Below are positions 2,509 to 63,977 of a stretch of DNA of 64,000 nucleotides, piece by piece. A program made the position numbers and the translations under genes. The stretch's first letter is position 1, and each line of letters begins with the position of its first letter. The DNA comes from Nannobrachium achirus (taxonomy: Eukaryota; Chordata; Actinopteri; Myctophiformes; Myctophidae): positions 29,567,543 to 29,631,542 of the forward strand of contig OY997657.1 in the NCBI GenBank assembly GCA_963921795.1, given 5' to 3'. Below the pieces are notes generated by a model. The model had not been told where the DNA came from and ran no database searches. It saw only the letters and a list, made by a program, of their open reading frames with translations.

Positions 2509-5500
2509 CTGTAGTGGAAAAAGGATACATAACAATAACGGTCAAAAAACACAAGTGTCTCACCTCCACCGTCACGTCAGTATGAGAGTCATAACAGAGA
2601 GACATGCAGACAGAACATTAGAGAATGAGAAACAGTTAAGGAACGCAGTGAGAAAAGAGATGGAAAAGAAGGAGGAGCTAAGAGTGACTGATTGATCCGC
2701 GAGAGAGATAAGGTCGGCGAGGAGCATTCCTTTGATCTCTGTCCAGGAAACTTGTGCTGAATCAAACAAAAAGCCGCCAGGGAGATAGGATCTTTCTGAC
2801 ACACTGATATGCACTCGATCATATTACAATAGGCACAGAAATAACAATATTCAGACAAATAACAAAAGCTCCAAGCGCGGCCTCAGGAACCACTCATCGG
2901 AAGCCTCCGGCGCTCCAACAGAGAGTTCAACAGAAAGGCTGAGGCCTAAACAGCACATCCGCCGAGCTTAGCCCGTCCAGGCCAACATTAGCCAGTCCAG
3001 CAGCATCCAGCTGTTTCATTCACTTTAAAAGCCGAAGCAACTTTGCCTGAGTTGGCGAGCGTCACAGTTCCCAAAGAGCTATAAATAATAATGACTCACG
3101 GAGCAGCTGAGAAGTCAAGTTCAGACAGTATTTGAATGTAAGGTGTTTCTCCTCCGCCTCCTTTCCTACTCCTAGTCTCATCCTCTCATCCTTCGCAGCT
3201 TTTGTGTCTTACAGGCCCTATCGTATATCTGAAGGGCCGTTGAAAGTGCAGAGGCAATTAAAATTGAGTATTTTTTTCCCCACTGAGGATGCGCAACGTT
3301 ATTTCACTACTCCTCCTGACAAAGGCGATAAATCATCTTTCAAGCTATTTATTATGCCCCGAAGATCCGCCGGTGGCCCCCCTTTGCCTCGTATAGATCA
3401 TACCTATTCTTTGAACTTTAGCTGCCATGCATAAAGACATGTCACAGTTGAACTCTTGAGAGTCGAGAGCCGCCTTGTCCCCCCCCCCCCCCCCCCCCCC
3501 CCCCCCTCACACAAAAACAGATTGAGGGGGTTGGGCCGTACGCTGGTCCCAGACACCATCCTCAGACAGTTAACAGTGTCTTGGGCTCTCCTGAGACCCA
3601 GACAGGAAGCTGTCCGAAGGGCCACGGAGAACATCAGGAAGTTCAGCCTCAAGGTAAAGTGCACAGAGAGAACTTAACTCGTCATCAATCATTTCCTATT
3701 ACAAAATACTGAAATATTAAATACCCAAACACCCGGTGATACTCACATTAATAACAATTACAGGAGTAGTTAGTCATCCCACGGTGATAGTTTATGACCC
3801 TATCCAAAATAATCAGATGTATAACCTTTGAACTTTTACAAGAAATTTTAACAACATCAATAAGCGACACTGCTGCTGGAATAGGTTGTCATGACATCGT
3901 CACCTTCGTGCGCGTGCACTGCGCCGTGCGCACACACACACACACACACACACACACACTTTTTTTTTCTTCCACTGAGCCTCGAGGCAGTACTTGTGCT
4001 ACATACATATGTGCACAGAAACAGACAGACACATGCATGAGAAAATATGCGAGCGAGCGCGCGCGCACACACACACACACACACACACTTTCTCCAACAG
4101 GCCCTTAAAGCAATACATGCTCCCGCACCCCGTCCTGCATTCCGTGTTTTACAGTGTGTGATTTACGGTGCTGTATCTATGAGCGAACGGGCCAAAGCTA
4201 ACAGCCCCGGAGAAAGCCCACAGATGCACACTGCAAGTTCACCACAATGTCACACACATAGCTCAGCCTCTCAGCACTACGCACAGGGCTCTAGGCCCCC
4301 TTTCTCTCTCTCTCTCTCATCATAGCCCAGGTCCACCACTGCACACATGGACCGCCAACTCTTAATATGGAAATGTTATGGAAACAAAACCTAAACATTT
4401 ACATTAGATGACTTTAGAAAAGGGGTTACGACGCTCCTCTTTATATTCCGCCGCTACGCTTCTACGTATTCCCCCACGTTTCTGGATGGGAGTGGGGATG
4501 GGAATGGGGAGGAGGGTGCGCCGTGCGGAGGAGGGCGAGGTGCATGGTGGGGAGTGGGTGGGGGGCGGGGTAGTTCGCAGAGAGGGGGAGAGGCAACCTT
4601 CTGAAAAGGTTAAAACTGTACATCAACAGATAAGGCGGCGGCGTGCGATACATCATGTCCCGGGCCTGTCAGGGAGGCCAGGCACAAATTGAAACAAGCA
4701 AAATTATAAACACAGGGGAGCAATGTCACCAAGGCCTTCTCCATACCGTAAAGAAAATAAATCGTCGTTGTCTCGTGGAAACCTCGTATGTCCAAAACCG
4801 TTCGTTCTGTATTTATCATTTTAAAAAAATGAACTGAACTAGTGAAAACAGCCGATCTACAAGCACACAACGCCTCGCGGCGCGAGGCGTTGTGTGTGCT
4901 TGTAGATCGGCTGTTTTCACTACTTTTGTGCAACTGCCTTGTATGATGAAGCAGTGCTTTACTTTTGCGAAAAGAAATTGCAAATTTGAAACTTGGAGAT
5001 ACAAGGTTTCTGCCCGACAGTGACGAAATGGACTATGAATCCGACTCAGAATTAATACAAGTCAATACCGCGGGACCTTGAGGTAAAATCACAGAGACGG
5101 GGCCAGAAACAATAACACTGGTTCTGATGGGGGTGGGGTGAAAAGGTAGGGAGAGGTCAGCGGGTCAAGGCTGAGTATGATGACTGCGGCACGAGATTCA
5201 CAAGAAAAAGTTCTAAGCGGCATCCAGGCACGATCAGCGGAGGGAGTAAATATAAATATATGGGGGAGGCCCCCTTTATATACTTCCTCGAAAAGTTACA
5301 AGGGCTGACGCGGTGATTGGAGGCTTGGAGTTGAGAGTTTGTAGTGCTAATTGTGGCTTATTATGTGGGCTGGATCCTCTTAACCTGGTGCGTGCTTATT
5401 ATACGCAGCGCTTCAGAGTACAAGTCAGCCATCTTCCAATAAACACCTAACCGTGTAACGAGTTGGTGAAATTGTTTGTGAAATGGAGCTAATTTCGGTG

Positions 5501-8500
5501 AAGGGGGACGCTTGACGAGCCTGGGCGTGGACCGCCGCTGCCAAGGCTTACTGTCGTTAGTGTTAACGAGCGGGTGGCGGTTGCTTTTTAAAGCAGGTGC
5601 CGGGTAGCTAACAACGGCAGCTTAATGAGAGCAAGGCACTCTGGAAACAAAAACCCTCTGAAGGAGACGAGAGAGTGTTATTAGTGCTGCCTGCGTGCGC
5701 ACACATGCACAATACACATACAGTGCACACACACACACACACACACACACACACACACACACACACACACACACACACACACACACACACACACACACAC
5801 ACACACACACACACACACACACACACACACACACACACTTAATGCATAAAGAAAATTCGTGCAGGAAACTTAACACAATTGACAAGACTAAGTGTACGTT
5901 GTATTTTAAGTGCTTAAATACAGGAAAACAGTCTCGCAGACACACGTGCAATGAGAAACAAAAAGGAAAAAGAGAGAGGAAGTATTCTAGCAAAACATAA
6001 ATTGCCAAACGAGAAAAACAAATAAAGATTTCAACCTTCCAAAACTTCATAAATTGATTTCAATCTCTATCGTTTTTTTTTAAAGTCTGAGCATCATTCC
6101 TAAATGGTTGAATAGCATGGTCTAAAATGGCCTGCATTTAACATTCCTACAGAACGGAGATCAAGGCTAATTGCATTTGTCACGTTCGGTGAGAAAGTCT
6201 AGAAAACTGGACTCCTGAAACTGGAAACCGTTCTGTCAAAATACATTACGCAACGTGACAAATTATCAATAAAATCCAGACGAATTTACGTGCGACTTTG
6301 ACACACTCTCACCTCGTTCCACATACCACGCAGGGCAATTTTAACAAACGCCCCTGCAGTGATTTAGATAGCGTAAGCCTCCGCACGGCGGTGAAACTCG
6401 GCAGCTCTGAGGTCTCCCCACAAAGACCTCTTTGTCTCGTGCGTTCGTACGTCAGGCCACAAGGTAGGTAGAACCGGTAAAGGCGCTGCCAAACATTAGT
6501 TTTAGCCTGTCATTTCTTTACTTTCTCTCCCCTGAAATACTGGTCTGGAACCTGTTTGACGTCCTGCAAGTCATCTGATTTATACTGGGTTGCGTCGGAA
6601 ATAGCCGTTCTGCAATTTCGCAACGCGCTGTGAGCTTGTAGATCTGCTATTTTCAGTGTTCGACACCAGCGTGCCACTAAGTATAAATCGGTGTGTGGAG
6701 GTGGGGGTGGTGGCAGGTAGACAGTTGTGAGGATGCATAGAAGGAAGAAAGTGTATGTGTGAGAAAAGGGGGGGCATAGTACAGCAAAACAGGAGCGTCA
6801 ATTGGGTATGGCAGGGGTATGCAGCTGCCATACCCTGGGTCCAGGGGGGAAGATACAAGTTAGTTCCAAATATGAATCCATGAATGTCTCTTTGTCTATC
6901 TGTGCGGGTTATTATGTTGGTAAATTACAGTAAAATTACTACAAATGCCAAATTTTACAAAATGGTCACTTTAACAAGGTGTTATAATTATATTCTCCAC
7001 ACTTGTATTCTCCCCAGCTTGACAAAATGGTATATTCCCAGGTTCCGCAGGTCAGCTGCGCAGGTGCAATGCATTATTGTTAATTGTGGCACGTTTACTA
7101 ACATGCTAAGTTTGGCTGCACTTGAAAAACCATTCCAGGCTGCCATATCCAGCCCAAGAAACCGTAGAAACCTGTTTTCTTTCTTCAGACATTGTGAACA
7201 GCGCGAGGCGTTGTGAGCATGTAGATGTGCTATTTTCACAATAGAACCGTGTTATCCAAAATGTAATGCCTATTTTCCATGAGGACTCCCATCTTTGCCA
7301 TACCCTAGCTTTTTGCTGAACTGACGCCACTGCAGCAAAAAGACAGAGTGTGTGTGTGTGGGTTTTGGTGAGAAATGGGCCCGGTCCATGCTGTCACAAC
7401 AGTGGTCAGTCCTGGCTATAGGCGGCTGATTAATAGGGGTTTATTTATAGGGTGTGAAGTAGGTAGTGGATAACTGTGTTTGTGTCTGTAAGGGGGGGGG
7501 GGGGGGGCAGCGATCCAATGCCTGCACACCAGGTGACAGGGTCCTCCGTGGTGTCACTATAAGTCTGTCTGCACATCCAGCTTGGCTGCGTTGGCCCCCT
7601 AGCAGCTGCAGCAGTGCTGGAAGCCTATAGTAGGTCAGACAGACGGATGATAAAGACAGCCCCTGATAACACGGACCGCCACGCACACAAACAGGATATT
7701 TAAAGGCTTGTCGTTCTGCCCGGAGGGGTGGCCTCGAACAGGGAGGTAAATAAGCCCTGGCTACATGCTGAACTATACCGAACATCCTACTGTCCATAAA
7801 TAACATGCTGTGAATGGGAAAGAGTCAGTCGCCCCTAAGACAAGTTATTAACTATGAATAGAAACCGCCCCCCACCTCCCTTCACCGCTTTACAGCAGAG
7901 GAAAGGTTCAATTCCGAAGCGCAGGTATCCAAAACAAAAACACAAGGCGGACGTGATAGCAGATGATCTGCAGACTAAATGAGTTGCCCGGGCGTGCGTG
8001 AGCACCATAATTAAGAGGGAATGGAGGGCTATAAAGAATAAAACATCCTCTGCCAGGTATAATTCTCCTCGGCGGTTTTATGTGTTCTGTCAGTGTGGTT
8101 TGGAAATGGGACGTGGATTGTTGCGGCTCTTCTTCTTCTGTGACGGCTGTTGGTATCGGATGAGCTTGCGGTACACAATGAAAACCTCAGGGTTCGTTCA
8201 ACTCCTATAGCAAATGTTACCAAATGGATGGCCCTGTAAGGGTCCATTGTAAGGGTCCATTTGGTTACAGGTGTACACTCTAGGACTTCAACAGGGGGTC
8301 CTCAGAGTTACTACAGGGGGTCCTCCAAATCTTCCAATCCTTTTTATATTAACAACTTTAACCCTAGTGTCCATGTTCTGAGAACTGTAGCCAAAAACAG
8401 CAGATCTACAAGCTCACAACGCCTCGAGTAAAAGTTCAAGTTTATTAGGTAATGACGGCTCAAGTGGTTAAATATCTGAAAACACAAATTGACATGAATC

Positions 8501-63810: not shown

Positions 63811-63892
63811 TTAAACCCTCTATAATTGGTAAAAGGTACTTATAATATACGTACTTGATACAGTCTTTTTTTTCACTCTCTATCAAATGCCC

Positions 63893-63977
63893 TTGCCAAA
63901 AAATAGCCGATCTACAAGCTCACAACGCGTCGCAACGCGGCGCGCTGTGAGCTTGTAGATCTGCTATTTTTTGGCAA
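63893..63977. repeat. shared hairpin, complete copy in hAT copy 4
   Basis: TTGCCAAAAAATAGCCGATC ... GATCTGCTATTTTTTGGCAA with inner arms ACAAGCTCACAACGCG / CGCGCTGTGAGCTTGT. Its flanks match those of the 43308-43394 copy in the same host family. Confidence 0.85.

Follow-up and report, generated by a model that had tools for sequence, protein, structure and literature searches.

Results

The genome of Nannobrachium achirus (Myctophidae) carries a palindromic hairpin that is a separable insert inside about ten kinds of small DNA transposon. We analyzed a 64,000-nucleotide stretch of this genome, hereafter the window (assembly GCA_963921795.1, contig OY997657.1, here C20, positions 29,567,543–29,631,542; the genome comprises 1.66 Gb in 564 contigs), in which the hairpin recurs at 31 positions. 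In one host, hAT1, it is clearly the body of a miniature inverted-repeat transposable element (MITE) that is bounded by CCACTTRAACCC terminal inverted repeats (TIRs) and the target site TTAA and is nested in the hAT transposon; in a second host, hAT2, a TTAA MITE with the hairpin inside it very probably inserted in the same manner. For the hairpin as a whole, we consider it probable, if narrowly so, that a nested palindromic TTAA-type MITE was carried into the host transposons and that its stem was later rewritten by template switching. It is unusual for one hairpin to recur in so many families belonging to different classes.

Recurrence and abundance of the hairpin

An earlier note on this DNA had reported the hairpin at 31 places, and every one of these carries at least a trace of an arm. 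A hidden Markov model (HMM) of the arm, trained on 21 arms from the window itself, finds 54 arms at E ≤ 1 that touch all 31 places, 28 of them with E < 0.01; the weakest matches are those at 24411 (E 0.3), 29602 (E 0.16), and 36850 (E 0.021), the last with an ATCGTC-like flank. With up to 3 mismatches, GATCTACAAGCTCACAACGC matches the window 29 times, compared to 0 matches in 100 dinucleotide shuffles. Local stems scoring at least 24 were found at the hairpin itself in 18 of the 31 copies; the copies at 41888 and 42102 are also hairpins, which the stem script paired with one another. An arm has been lost in the copies at 8389, 28014, and 35834, and the hairpin tip in those at 17585, 20110, and 55758. 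Seven chosen copies form long stems on folding, with z values of −6 to −17 relative to shuffles.

Across the genome, we counted 25,166 forward and 25,042 reverse occurrences of the exact 20-base arm (50,208 in all), compared to 0 both ways for a reversed control. We sampled 20 stretches of 10 kb, one per contig from C1 to C20 at 20.0 Mb (200 kb), and called hairpins at an arm HMM score of at least 12, a cutoff that we chose ourselves and whose false-positive rate was not measured. This sample contains 79 merged hairpins, about 0.4 per kb, and 94 single arms with a score of at least 15. The hairpin density of the window is not special relative to the rest of the genome. If the sampled stretches are typical, 79 hairpins in 200 kb extrapolate to perhaps 650,000 copies genome-wide.

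The 20-mer arm is absent from viral contigs, and a longer pattern is absent from the genome contigs searched for prokaryotic or viral relatives. Two matches to a shorter pattern (L003 and L004) look like chance, there being no hairpin around the match, and were rejected as viral relatives. A hAT2 end gave two candidate matches (L001 and L002). A shared RNA function, such as that of a microRNA precursor, was likewise rejected, as Rfam yields 0 matches in the window at the gathering score. A tRNA scan with the bacterial code found none in the window, which contains many long dinucleotide arrays. Searched for as text, the arm and the TTAA-type TIR gave no relevant match in the literature covered, which leaves most subscription journals outside.

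Host families and target-site duplications

Hosts were labeled by BLAST of the flanks (E 1e-3, within 250 bases, best host only). For the 79 sampled hairpins, this resulted in 18 ATCGTC, 15 CAGTGG, 10 two-hairpin, 4 hAT2, 4 hAT1, 3 TAGGGC, 3 GACTAAA, 3 TACT, and 2 CAGTGGTTCCC hosts, as well as 3 standalone TTAA elements, with the remaining 14 carrying no host label; these counts contain self-matches, because some sampled copies (ATCGTC, CAGTGG, CAGTGGTTCCC, TACT, and GACTAAA) doubled as references. Anything within 250 bases counts, and 26 of 118 hairpins matched more than one host label. In a clustering of the flanks, the largest cluster (74 flanks) mixed several families and was then divided by eye. 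Within the window, 25 of the 31 copies were labeled, three of them as standalone TTAA MITEs, which agrees with the previous estimate of about 23 copies inside elements. The labeling printed counts only; two of the seven copies labeled hAT1 must be those at 19841 and 56205, which merely adjoin hAT1 within 250 bases and which we read as TTAA-type. Two of the host families presumably resemble elements known from teleost fish.

The hosts span at least three classes of target-site duplication (TSD), namely 8 bp (the hATs), 4 bp (ATCGTC), and TTAA. The terminal motifs described previously are real, and many of the elements display TSDs. The hAT class comprises hAT1, hAT2, TAGGGC, CAGTGG, and CAGTGGTTCCC, as judged by 8-bp TSDs. 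The TSDs of hATs in the window are CTGTAAGG, CTGTAAGC, ATGTACTG, CTAAGAAG, and GACACACC, and those read by eye in sampled hATs are TTATACAC and GGGTAAAC; no 8-bp TSD was found for the elements at 52672 (TAGGGC) and 45750 (CAGTGG). The ATCGTC family was considered as a hAT and rejected, its TSD being 4 bp rather than 8 bp (exact in 10 of 14 elements by our reading of the printed termini). TSD classes were established for the hATs, ATCGTC, and the TTAA element, with CTGATT, TACT, GACTAAA, and the two-hairpin element falling outside this count. Some of the hATs may be distantly related; the three classes are not one family with altered ends. That different host families share the hairpin, as had been claimed, is supported by these hosts of different TSD classes.

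A TTAA-bounded MITE nested in hAT1 and very probably in hAT2

The flank comparison brought out TTAACCACTTRAACCC as a recurrent sequence. With up to 3 mismatches, this TIR (TTAACCACTTRAACCC / GGGTTYAAGTGGTTAA) has 14 matches in the window, all of which, as we read them by position, lie beside the hairpin and face it. A script using fixed spans placed 12 of the 14 near a hairpin, whereas 300 rotations averaged 1.7 and never exceeded 8. With these 95-base spans, the TIRs at 8456 and 17655 were scored as far and that at 15475 as not inward, although by position all three adjoin and face a hairpin. At loci L005–L032, 10 of 12 TIR matches with up to 2 mismatches are near a hairpin and inward, and 29 of 231 hairpin flanks score at least 13/16 for the TIR, compared to 0 for a reversed control, with one TIR counted for two neighboring hairpins.

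The hAT1 copies read TATATTAA/CC...GG/TTAAATATC, in the order hAT end, TTAA, CCACTTGAACCC, hairpin, GGTTCAAGTGG, TTAA, hAT end. TTAA is found on both sides in the window copies at 8349/8456, 9715/9888, and 55719/55865, and elsewhere at L022 3773/3954, at L031 5561/5737, and in a standalone TTAA...TTAA copy in L028. Two hAT1 copies do not have paired TTAA: that at 20070 has lost its right end, and the sites at 35796/35922 read TGAA and TTAC. When we searched the genome for the predicted empty hAT1 junction, 11 matches were obtained, compared to 1 for the control. One of these, L043, is a hAT1 with both ends, its own 8-bp TSD (CCCTATAG/CCCTACAG, 7/8), and a single TTAA at the predicted site (TTTTTTATATTAAATATCT), plus another insert. 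Because L043 has a flank deletion in common with the filled copy at 8293, it may have arisen by excision instead of predating the insertion. Some of the other ten matches are filled with an altered junction (e.g., L035, L037, L041, and L042), and the rest have no hAT1 left flank there. A stretch of the 3′ half of hAT1 (query positions 95–135) also occurs in tandem arrays at L009 757–1335 and at L035–L038.

Beyond the hairpin and TIR, alignments between the nested long arm of hAT1 and the left interior of hAT2 were equaled by 2 and 3 of 2000 shuffles, and the long arms of hAT1 and hAT2 each align with the standalone copy L027 (0 of 2000 shuffles each). The sequence common to hAT1 and hAT2 thus extends far past the hairpin, very probably because both hold the same inserted MITE. 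The earlier note had proposed that a module moves between transposons, an idea that, in its own terms, homology well outside the hairpin among all host families would contradict. Such homology exists between hAT1 and hAT2, through their common MITE arm, and the transfer into hAT1 is an ordinary nested insertion; what stands of the proposal is that hosts of different TSD classes share the hairpin and that it is a discrete module.

Presence and absence of the hairpin in the CAGTGG-type hAT

In the CAGTGG-type hAT, a hairpin-less copy (L017 6056) and a filled copy (L018 9222) match on both sides of the hairpin, a few substitutions aside; at the junction, the filled copy has in addition GTGAAAATAGC-hairpin-GCTATTTTCACAATGTT. 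Allowing up to 3 mismatches, the hairpin-less junction occurs at 8 places in the genome, compared to 0 for the control; six are precise, including the L017 copy, and in two a remnant of the left arm is still present. In the filled copy, the hairpin is preceded by AATATT and followed by AATGTT. The six precise sites, which come from two host subfamilies, display the A form in three cases and the G form in three, each form occurring in both subfamilies. Such repeats would also be expected from a 6-bp target duplication. L049 and L050 are partial hairpin deletions with a left-arm stump, showing stepwise loss. L025, a candidate for a hairpin-less CAGTGG element, was rejected, its interior being different rather than an empty site. 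The hairpin had been described as a module, and it is indeed discrete: homology between copies drops just beyond AAATAGC, and filled and hairpin-less copies exist in two hosts, hAT1 and the CAGTGG type.

Conserved core and family-specific outer arms

We compared the stem column by column in 59 paired hairpins, chosen by a match to the 17-base core with up to 4 substitutions. Core columns −2 to 16 show between-copy identities of.75–.97, except for column 1 (.68) and column 5 (.43). In columns −9 to −4, identities are.26–.41 between copies and.49–.76 between the two arms of one hairpin. Columns −2 and −1, which lie outside the selection, still reach.93 and.87 between copies, so the boundary is not produced by the way in which the hairpins were selected. 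Core position 5 (GC[A/C]GATC) often has A in one arm and C in the other, the arms agreeing in.42 of the 59 hairpins; this A/C mismatch is not confined to one family and occurs whichever way the hairpin is oriented in its host.

In 12 family representatives of our choosing, the outer arm at −9 to −4 matches its own partner at 5.25/6 positions and that of another family at 1.79/6, a result reached by 0 of 100,000 permutations. The paired, family-specific changes include GCACAC in ATCGTC and CATGCTC in CAGTGG. In the GACTAAA-type host (L015 4150–4420 and L021 4150–4420), the outer arm has ten bases, TTGCGTGCTG. The interior is more conserved between families than the ends, and the TIRs of the hosts differ. 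Outer bases that are family-specific yet palindromic would fit rewriting by template switching, a process that, as described in PMC8794818, creates and repairs hairpins during replication. Template switching explains paired changes without selection, but not the entry of the hairpin into a host.

Origin of the hairpin and alternative explanations

In the explanation that we favor, the hairpin would be the body of a tiny, almost wholly palindromic MITE, itself mobile and extremely numerous, one lineage of which has CCACTTRAACCC inverted repeats at its ends and TTAA as its target site. This MITE would have inserted into other small DNA transposons, among them several hATs, and the transposases of the hosts would then have multiplied some of the composites, with the hairpin carried along. 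The nested MITE would later have lost its outer parts in most host families, leaving the hairpin. In each family, hairpin-templated (template-switch) synthesis would have rewritten the outermost bases of both arms together, the stem staying near-perfect. We infer both this last step and the same arrival route for ATCGTC, TAGGGC, and other hosts.

Several observations weigh against this explanation. A scan of the flanks revealed no clear TTAA-type TIR in ATCGTC, TAGGGC, or GACTAAA copies, and the one CAGTGG-type flank that reaches 13/16 (L022 5206) has its match outside the element; the lack of clear TIRs of this kind leaves nesting of a TTAA element unproven for the most numerous hosts. The precise CAGTGG-type sites are best read as recurrent loss between two 6-bp repeats and not as the state before insertion. 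No general direct repeat flanks the hairpin in the 12 family representatives (own 3.83/8, other 4.07/8). At 4 mismatches, the TIR barely exceeds the controls in the window (20 matches versus 13 reversed and 5–16 shuffled). When 11 pairs of TTAA-type arms were compared, no more than 3 of 2000 shuffles equaled the alignment in four pairs, 12 and 38 did so in two, and 328 or more in five; these mostly negative short-arm comparisons imply that the TTAA group is old or mixed. Few copies (3 of 79) were labeled as standalone TTAA elements, and the element ends in CCACTT rather than in the piggyBac terminal motif CC[C/T]T. In the GACTAAA family, inspection by eye alone suggested a possible 8-bp direct repeat, TCAGGTGT/TCAAGTGT (7/8).

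Alternatively, the hairpin might in most hosts be a free, mobile bare palindrome that inserts directly into transposons or breaks, the TTAA element then being one more host. The sharp drop in between-copy identity from.93 at column −2 to.26–.41 at columns −9 to −4 would suit such a unit, as would the insert at the junction of the CAGTGG-type pair, the 8 hairpin-less junctions with their 6 precise cases, and the flanks TA/GTG...CAC/TA in 10 of 15 GTG-type hairpins, all of which are ATCGTC or TAGGGC by our reading. However, there is no consistent target duplication around the hairpin, sequence of the TTAA element is found outside it in hAT1 and hAT2, and no transposase or end motif was found for such a unit (no transposase was sought in the hAT hosts). 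We regard this explanation as unlikely. Somewhat less likely still is a broader version, in which a bare palindrome of about 80 bp would be a mobile passenger in its own right across superfamilies, leaving from between short repeats, rewriting its arms, and favoring the multiplication of its hosts, so that a large share of the MITEs would be its carriers. Yet another possibility, and a very improbable one, is that all hosts descend from a single hairpin-bearing element of which only the ends diverged. Several hosts are hATs with related-looking ends (CAGTGG/CAGGGG), but there are three TSD classes, hairpin-less copies of two hosts exist, and only 7 of 625 cross-family flank comparisons exceed a z of 3, three of them between hAT1 and hAT2.

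The hairpin could also be a selected amplifier, with host MITEs multiplying through a bound factor, snap-back copying, or RNA, so that composites dominate. Among 189 interspersed-repeat blocks in 260 kb, 95 lie within 150 bp of a hairpin, whereas 200 rotations gave 49 on average and at most 63. This excess is partly circular, because the blocks contain the hairpin hosts, and the other 94 blocks are not near a hairpin. Pairs of copies in the window differ less in the hairpin than in the flanks (18/343 versus 117/952, p 2e-4; 14/307 versus 88/779, p 5e-4; with other pairs, 19/316 versus 123/800, p 1e-5). Pairs with a half-deleted hairpin, which were misaligned, are not used. The contrast weakens if only transversions are counted (p 0.03, 0.10, and 6e-4), and one hAT1 pair displays the opposite (hairpin 8/55, flank 33/290). 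In 13 rows of the ATCGTC family, private changes number 17/618 in the core (2.75%), 63/1469 in the flanks (4.3%), and 28/642 in the ends, which are no better conserved than the flanks; the core–flank difference is slight (p = 0.10), and even this is inflated by one row (L018+2842) whose reverse orientation contributes spurious differences in the flanks. The strong constraint on the hairpin that the window pairs suggested is not upheld by these rows. The amplifier is improbable in our judgment, and the suggestion in the earlier note that the hairpin is a hitch-hiking amplifier is not supported so far by the best-sampled family.

Ectopic recombination or gene conversion between hairpins, spreading and homogenizing the core among families that had an older version, appears more doubtful again. 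Arms differ by 7.9% between four host families, which is less than the flanks differ within families, and two chimeras are joined at the hairpin, TAGGGC/hAT2 (51648–51987) and hAT1/ATCGTC (L031 677–952). Within families, however, the arms differ by only 4.2%, and the family-specific paired states persist across copies, which argues against rampant exchange between families. Both chimeras look like simple deletions between neighboring or nested elements; they are evidence of recombination at the palindrome but not of its spread by that route. At 2.75% private changes per copy, a difference of about 5.5% is expected between any two copies; much of the between-family difference is thus private, and the founders probably had a near-identical core. 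From these comparisons, the hairpin may have reached its hosts shortly before they multiplied, or it may have been held constant in the active copies.

Elements in the window

The individual copies are listed in Table 1. The window also contains an inverted local duplication at 58792–63002, in which 58926–59777 matches 61699–60849 at 99% and 58792–58926 matches 63002–62868 at 100%. A 220-residue open reading frame lies inside the inverted duplicated block at 59949–60611, and at 61819–62498 there is a degenerate tandem array with the motif ATGCCCATATATGG, whose units range from about 46 to 129 bp.

Table 1. Hairpin copies and related elements in the window
Positions	Strand	Element	TSD	Hairpin and other features
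4761–5029	+	ATCGTC element	AAAT/AAAT (4 bp)	hairpin 4837–4925
6575–6691	+	CTGATTTATAC element		hairpin with one strong arm, 6625–6653
7208–7237	−	fragment with CAGTGG-family flank		hairpin arm
8293–8592	+	hAT1 fragment		nested TTAA element, TIRs 8349–8364 and 8456–8471; one hairpin arm lost
9563–9992	−	hAT1 (CAGGGGTCTTCAA)	ATGTACTG	hairpin 9781–9865; nested TTAA TIRs 9715–9730 and 9888–9903
10638–10860	+	relative of CAGTGG-type hAT		hairpin-less
11214–11599	+	TAGGGCTGTCAC element	GACACACC (8 bp)	hairpin 11322–11393
14577–14647	+	no recognized host		hairpin
15398–15490	+			degenerate hairpin; right TTAA-MITE TIR 15475–15490
15526–15638	+	standalone TTAA-MITE		hairpin; right TIR GGGTTTAAGTGGTTAA 15623–15638
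17483–17670	+	standalone TTAA-MITE		left TTAACCACTTTCAATG; hairpin ~17590–17635; right TIR 17655–17670 (GTAA)
19808–19926	+	standalone TTAA-type copy		left TIR 19808–19823; hairpin 19841–19926
19960–20380	+	hAT1	CTGTAAGG	hairpin 20106–20160; left TTAA TIR 20070–20085
24411–24430	+	near CTGATTTATAC-like end at 24373		weak arm match (E 0.3)
27780–28104	+	hAT2 (TAGGGATGGGACGATA)	7/8	half hairpin 28027; left TTAA-MITE TIR remnant 27927–27942
29595–29667	+	no recognized host		divergent palindrome, weak arm match (E 0.16)
35692–36039	+	hAT1		hairpin truncated by deletion of its right half; TIRs 35796 and 35922 (4 mismatches)
36873–36887	−	divergent ATCGTC-type copy		hairpin copy (E 0.021)
40403–40833	+	two-hairpin element		hairpins 40411–40496 and 40737–40815 in inverted ends
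41867–42180	+	second two-hairpin element		hairpins ~41888–41945 and ~42102–42160
43072–43503	+	hAT2	CTAAGAAG	hairpin 43308–43394
44504–44746	−	ATCGTC element	ATAT	hairpin 44600–44679
45750–46093	+	CAGTGG hAT	none seen	damaged hairpin 45867–45923
48432–48579	+	CTGATTTATAC element		end-to-end palindrome, hairpin central
51648–51987	+	chimera, TAGGGC nested in hAT2		TAGGGC to the left and hAT2 to the right of a junction in the hairpin
52672–53075	−	TAGGGC element	none seen	hairpin 52883–52955
54477–54733	−	ATCGTC element	ATAT	hairpin 54571–54659
55611–56039	+	hAT1	CTGTAAGC	hairpin 55758–55812; nested TTAA element between TTAA 55719 and TTAA 55880
56146–56280	+	divergent TTAA-type copy (TTAACAACTTTCAACC, 4 mismatches)		hairpin 56210–56280
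63811–64000	+	hAT2-type arm without hAT2 5′ end		hairpin 63893–63977; runs past window edge

Relation to known systems and significance

Nested insertions of MITEs and composite MITEs are a well-known pattern, and a hAT1 with an internal TTAA element next to a copy without it is a textbook nest. Unlike in ordinary nests, the hairpin of the nest partner recurs here in many families, mostly without the rest of the element. Angel-type MITEs of fish are short and fully palindromic, and snap-back amplification has been suggested for them; the present hairpin is similar in being a short palindrome of fish, but it rides inside other transposons, and snap-back copying is only hypothetical. A keyword search of the literature, which left most subscription journals, Repbase, and Dfam outside, revealed no fish counterpart.

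The closest precedent that we found are the CMITEs of Acropora corals. As they are described in PMC2872659, these are small, TTAA-flanked MITEs with an interior that is more conserved between families than the terminal repeats, and all families retain TTAA and a CC[C/T]T end; about 1,600 copies were estimated in A. millepora. According to the same description, insertion of a CMITE into another sequence created a new mobile element, CMITE-IN, and the origin of the interior is unknown. An interior more conserved than the ends is also found here. In contrast to the CMITEs as described, the shared piece is palindromic, its exact arm occurs 50,208 times, the TTAA element ends in CCACTT, and the hosts belong to at least three TSD classes, those with 8-bp and 4-bp TSDs not being TTAA-flanked. 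The present case extends the coral pattern across TSD classes and to a palindrome. Work on quasipalindromes, as presented in PMC8794818, predicts that template switching yields perfect stems and simultaneous changes in two arms, as observed in the outer arms and core; unlike in that work, our reading is drawn from a comparison of repeat families and not from dated single events.

MITEs are classified by their ends, different ends meaning different elements, and the hairpin links about ten such families. Repeat annotation based on the shared interior would wrongly merge these roughly ten host families. The hairpin also offers a large natural data set on the persistence of palindromes, in which one stem is found in many backgrounds with paired changes in the outer arms, loss of the tip, and clean loss of the whole hairpin. 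If it is true that the hairpin favors amplification, it would bear on the question of why some MITEs explode in number.

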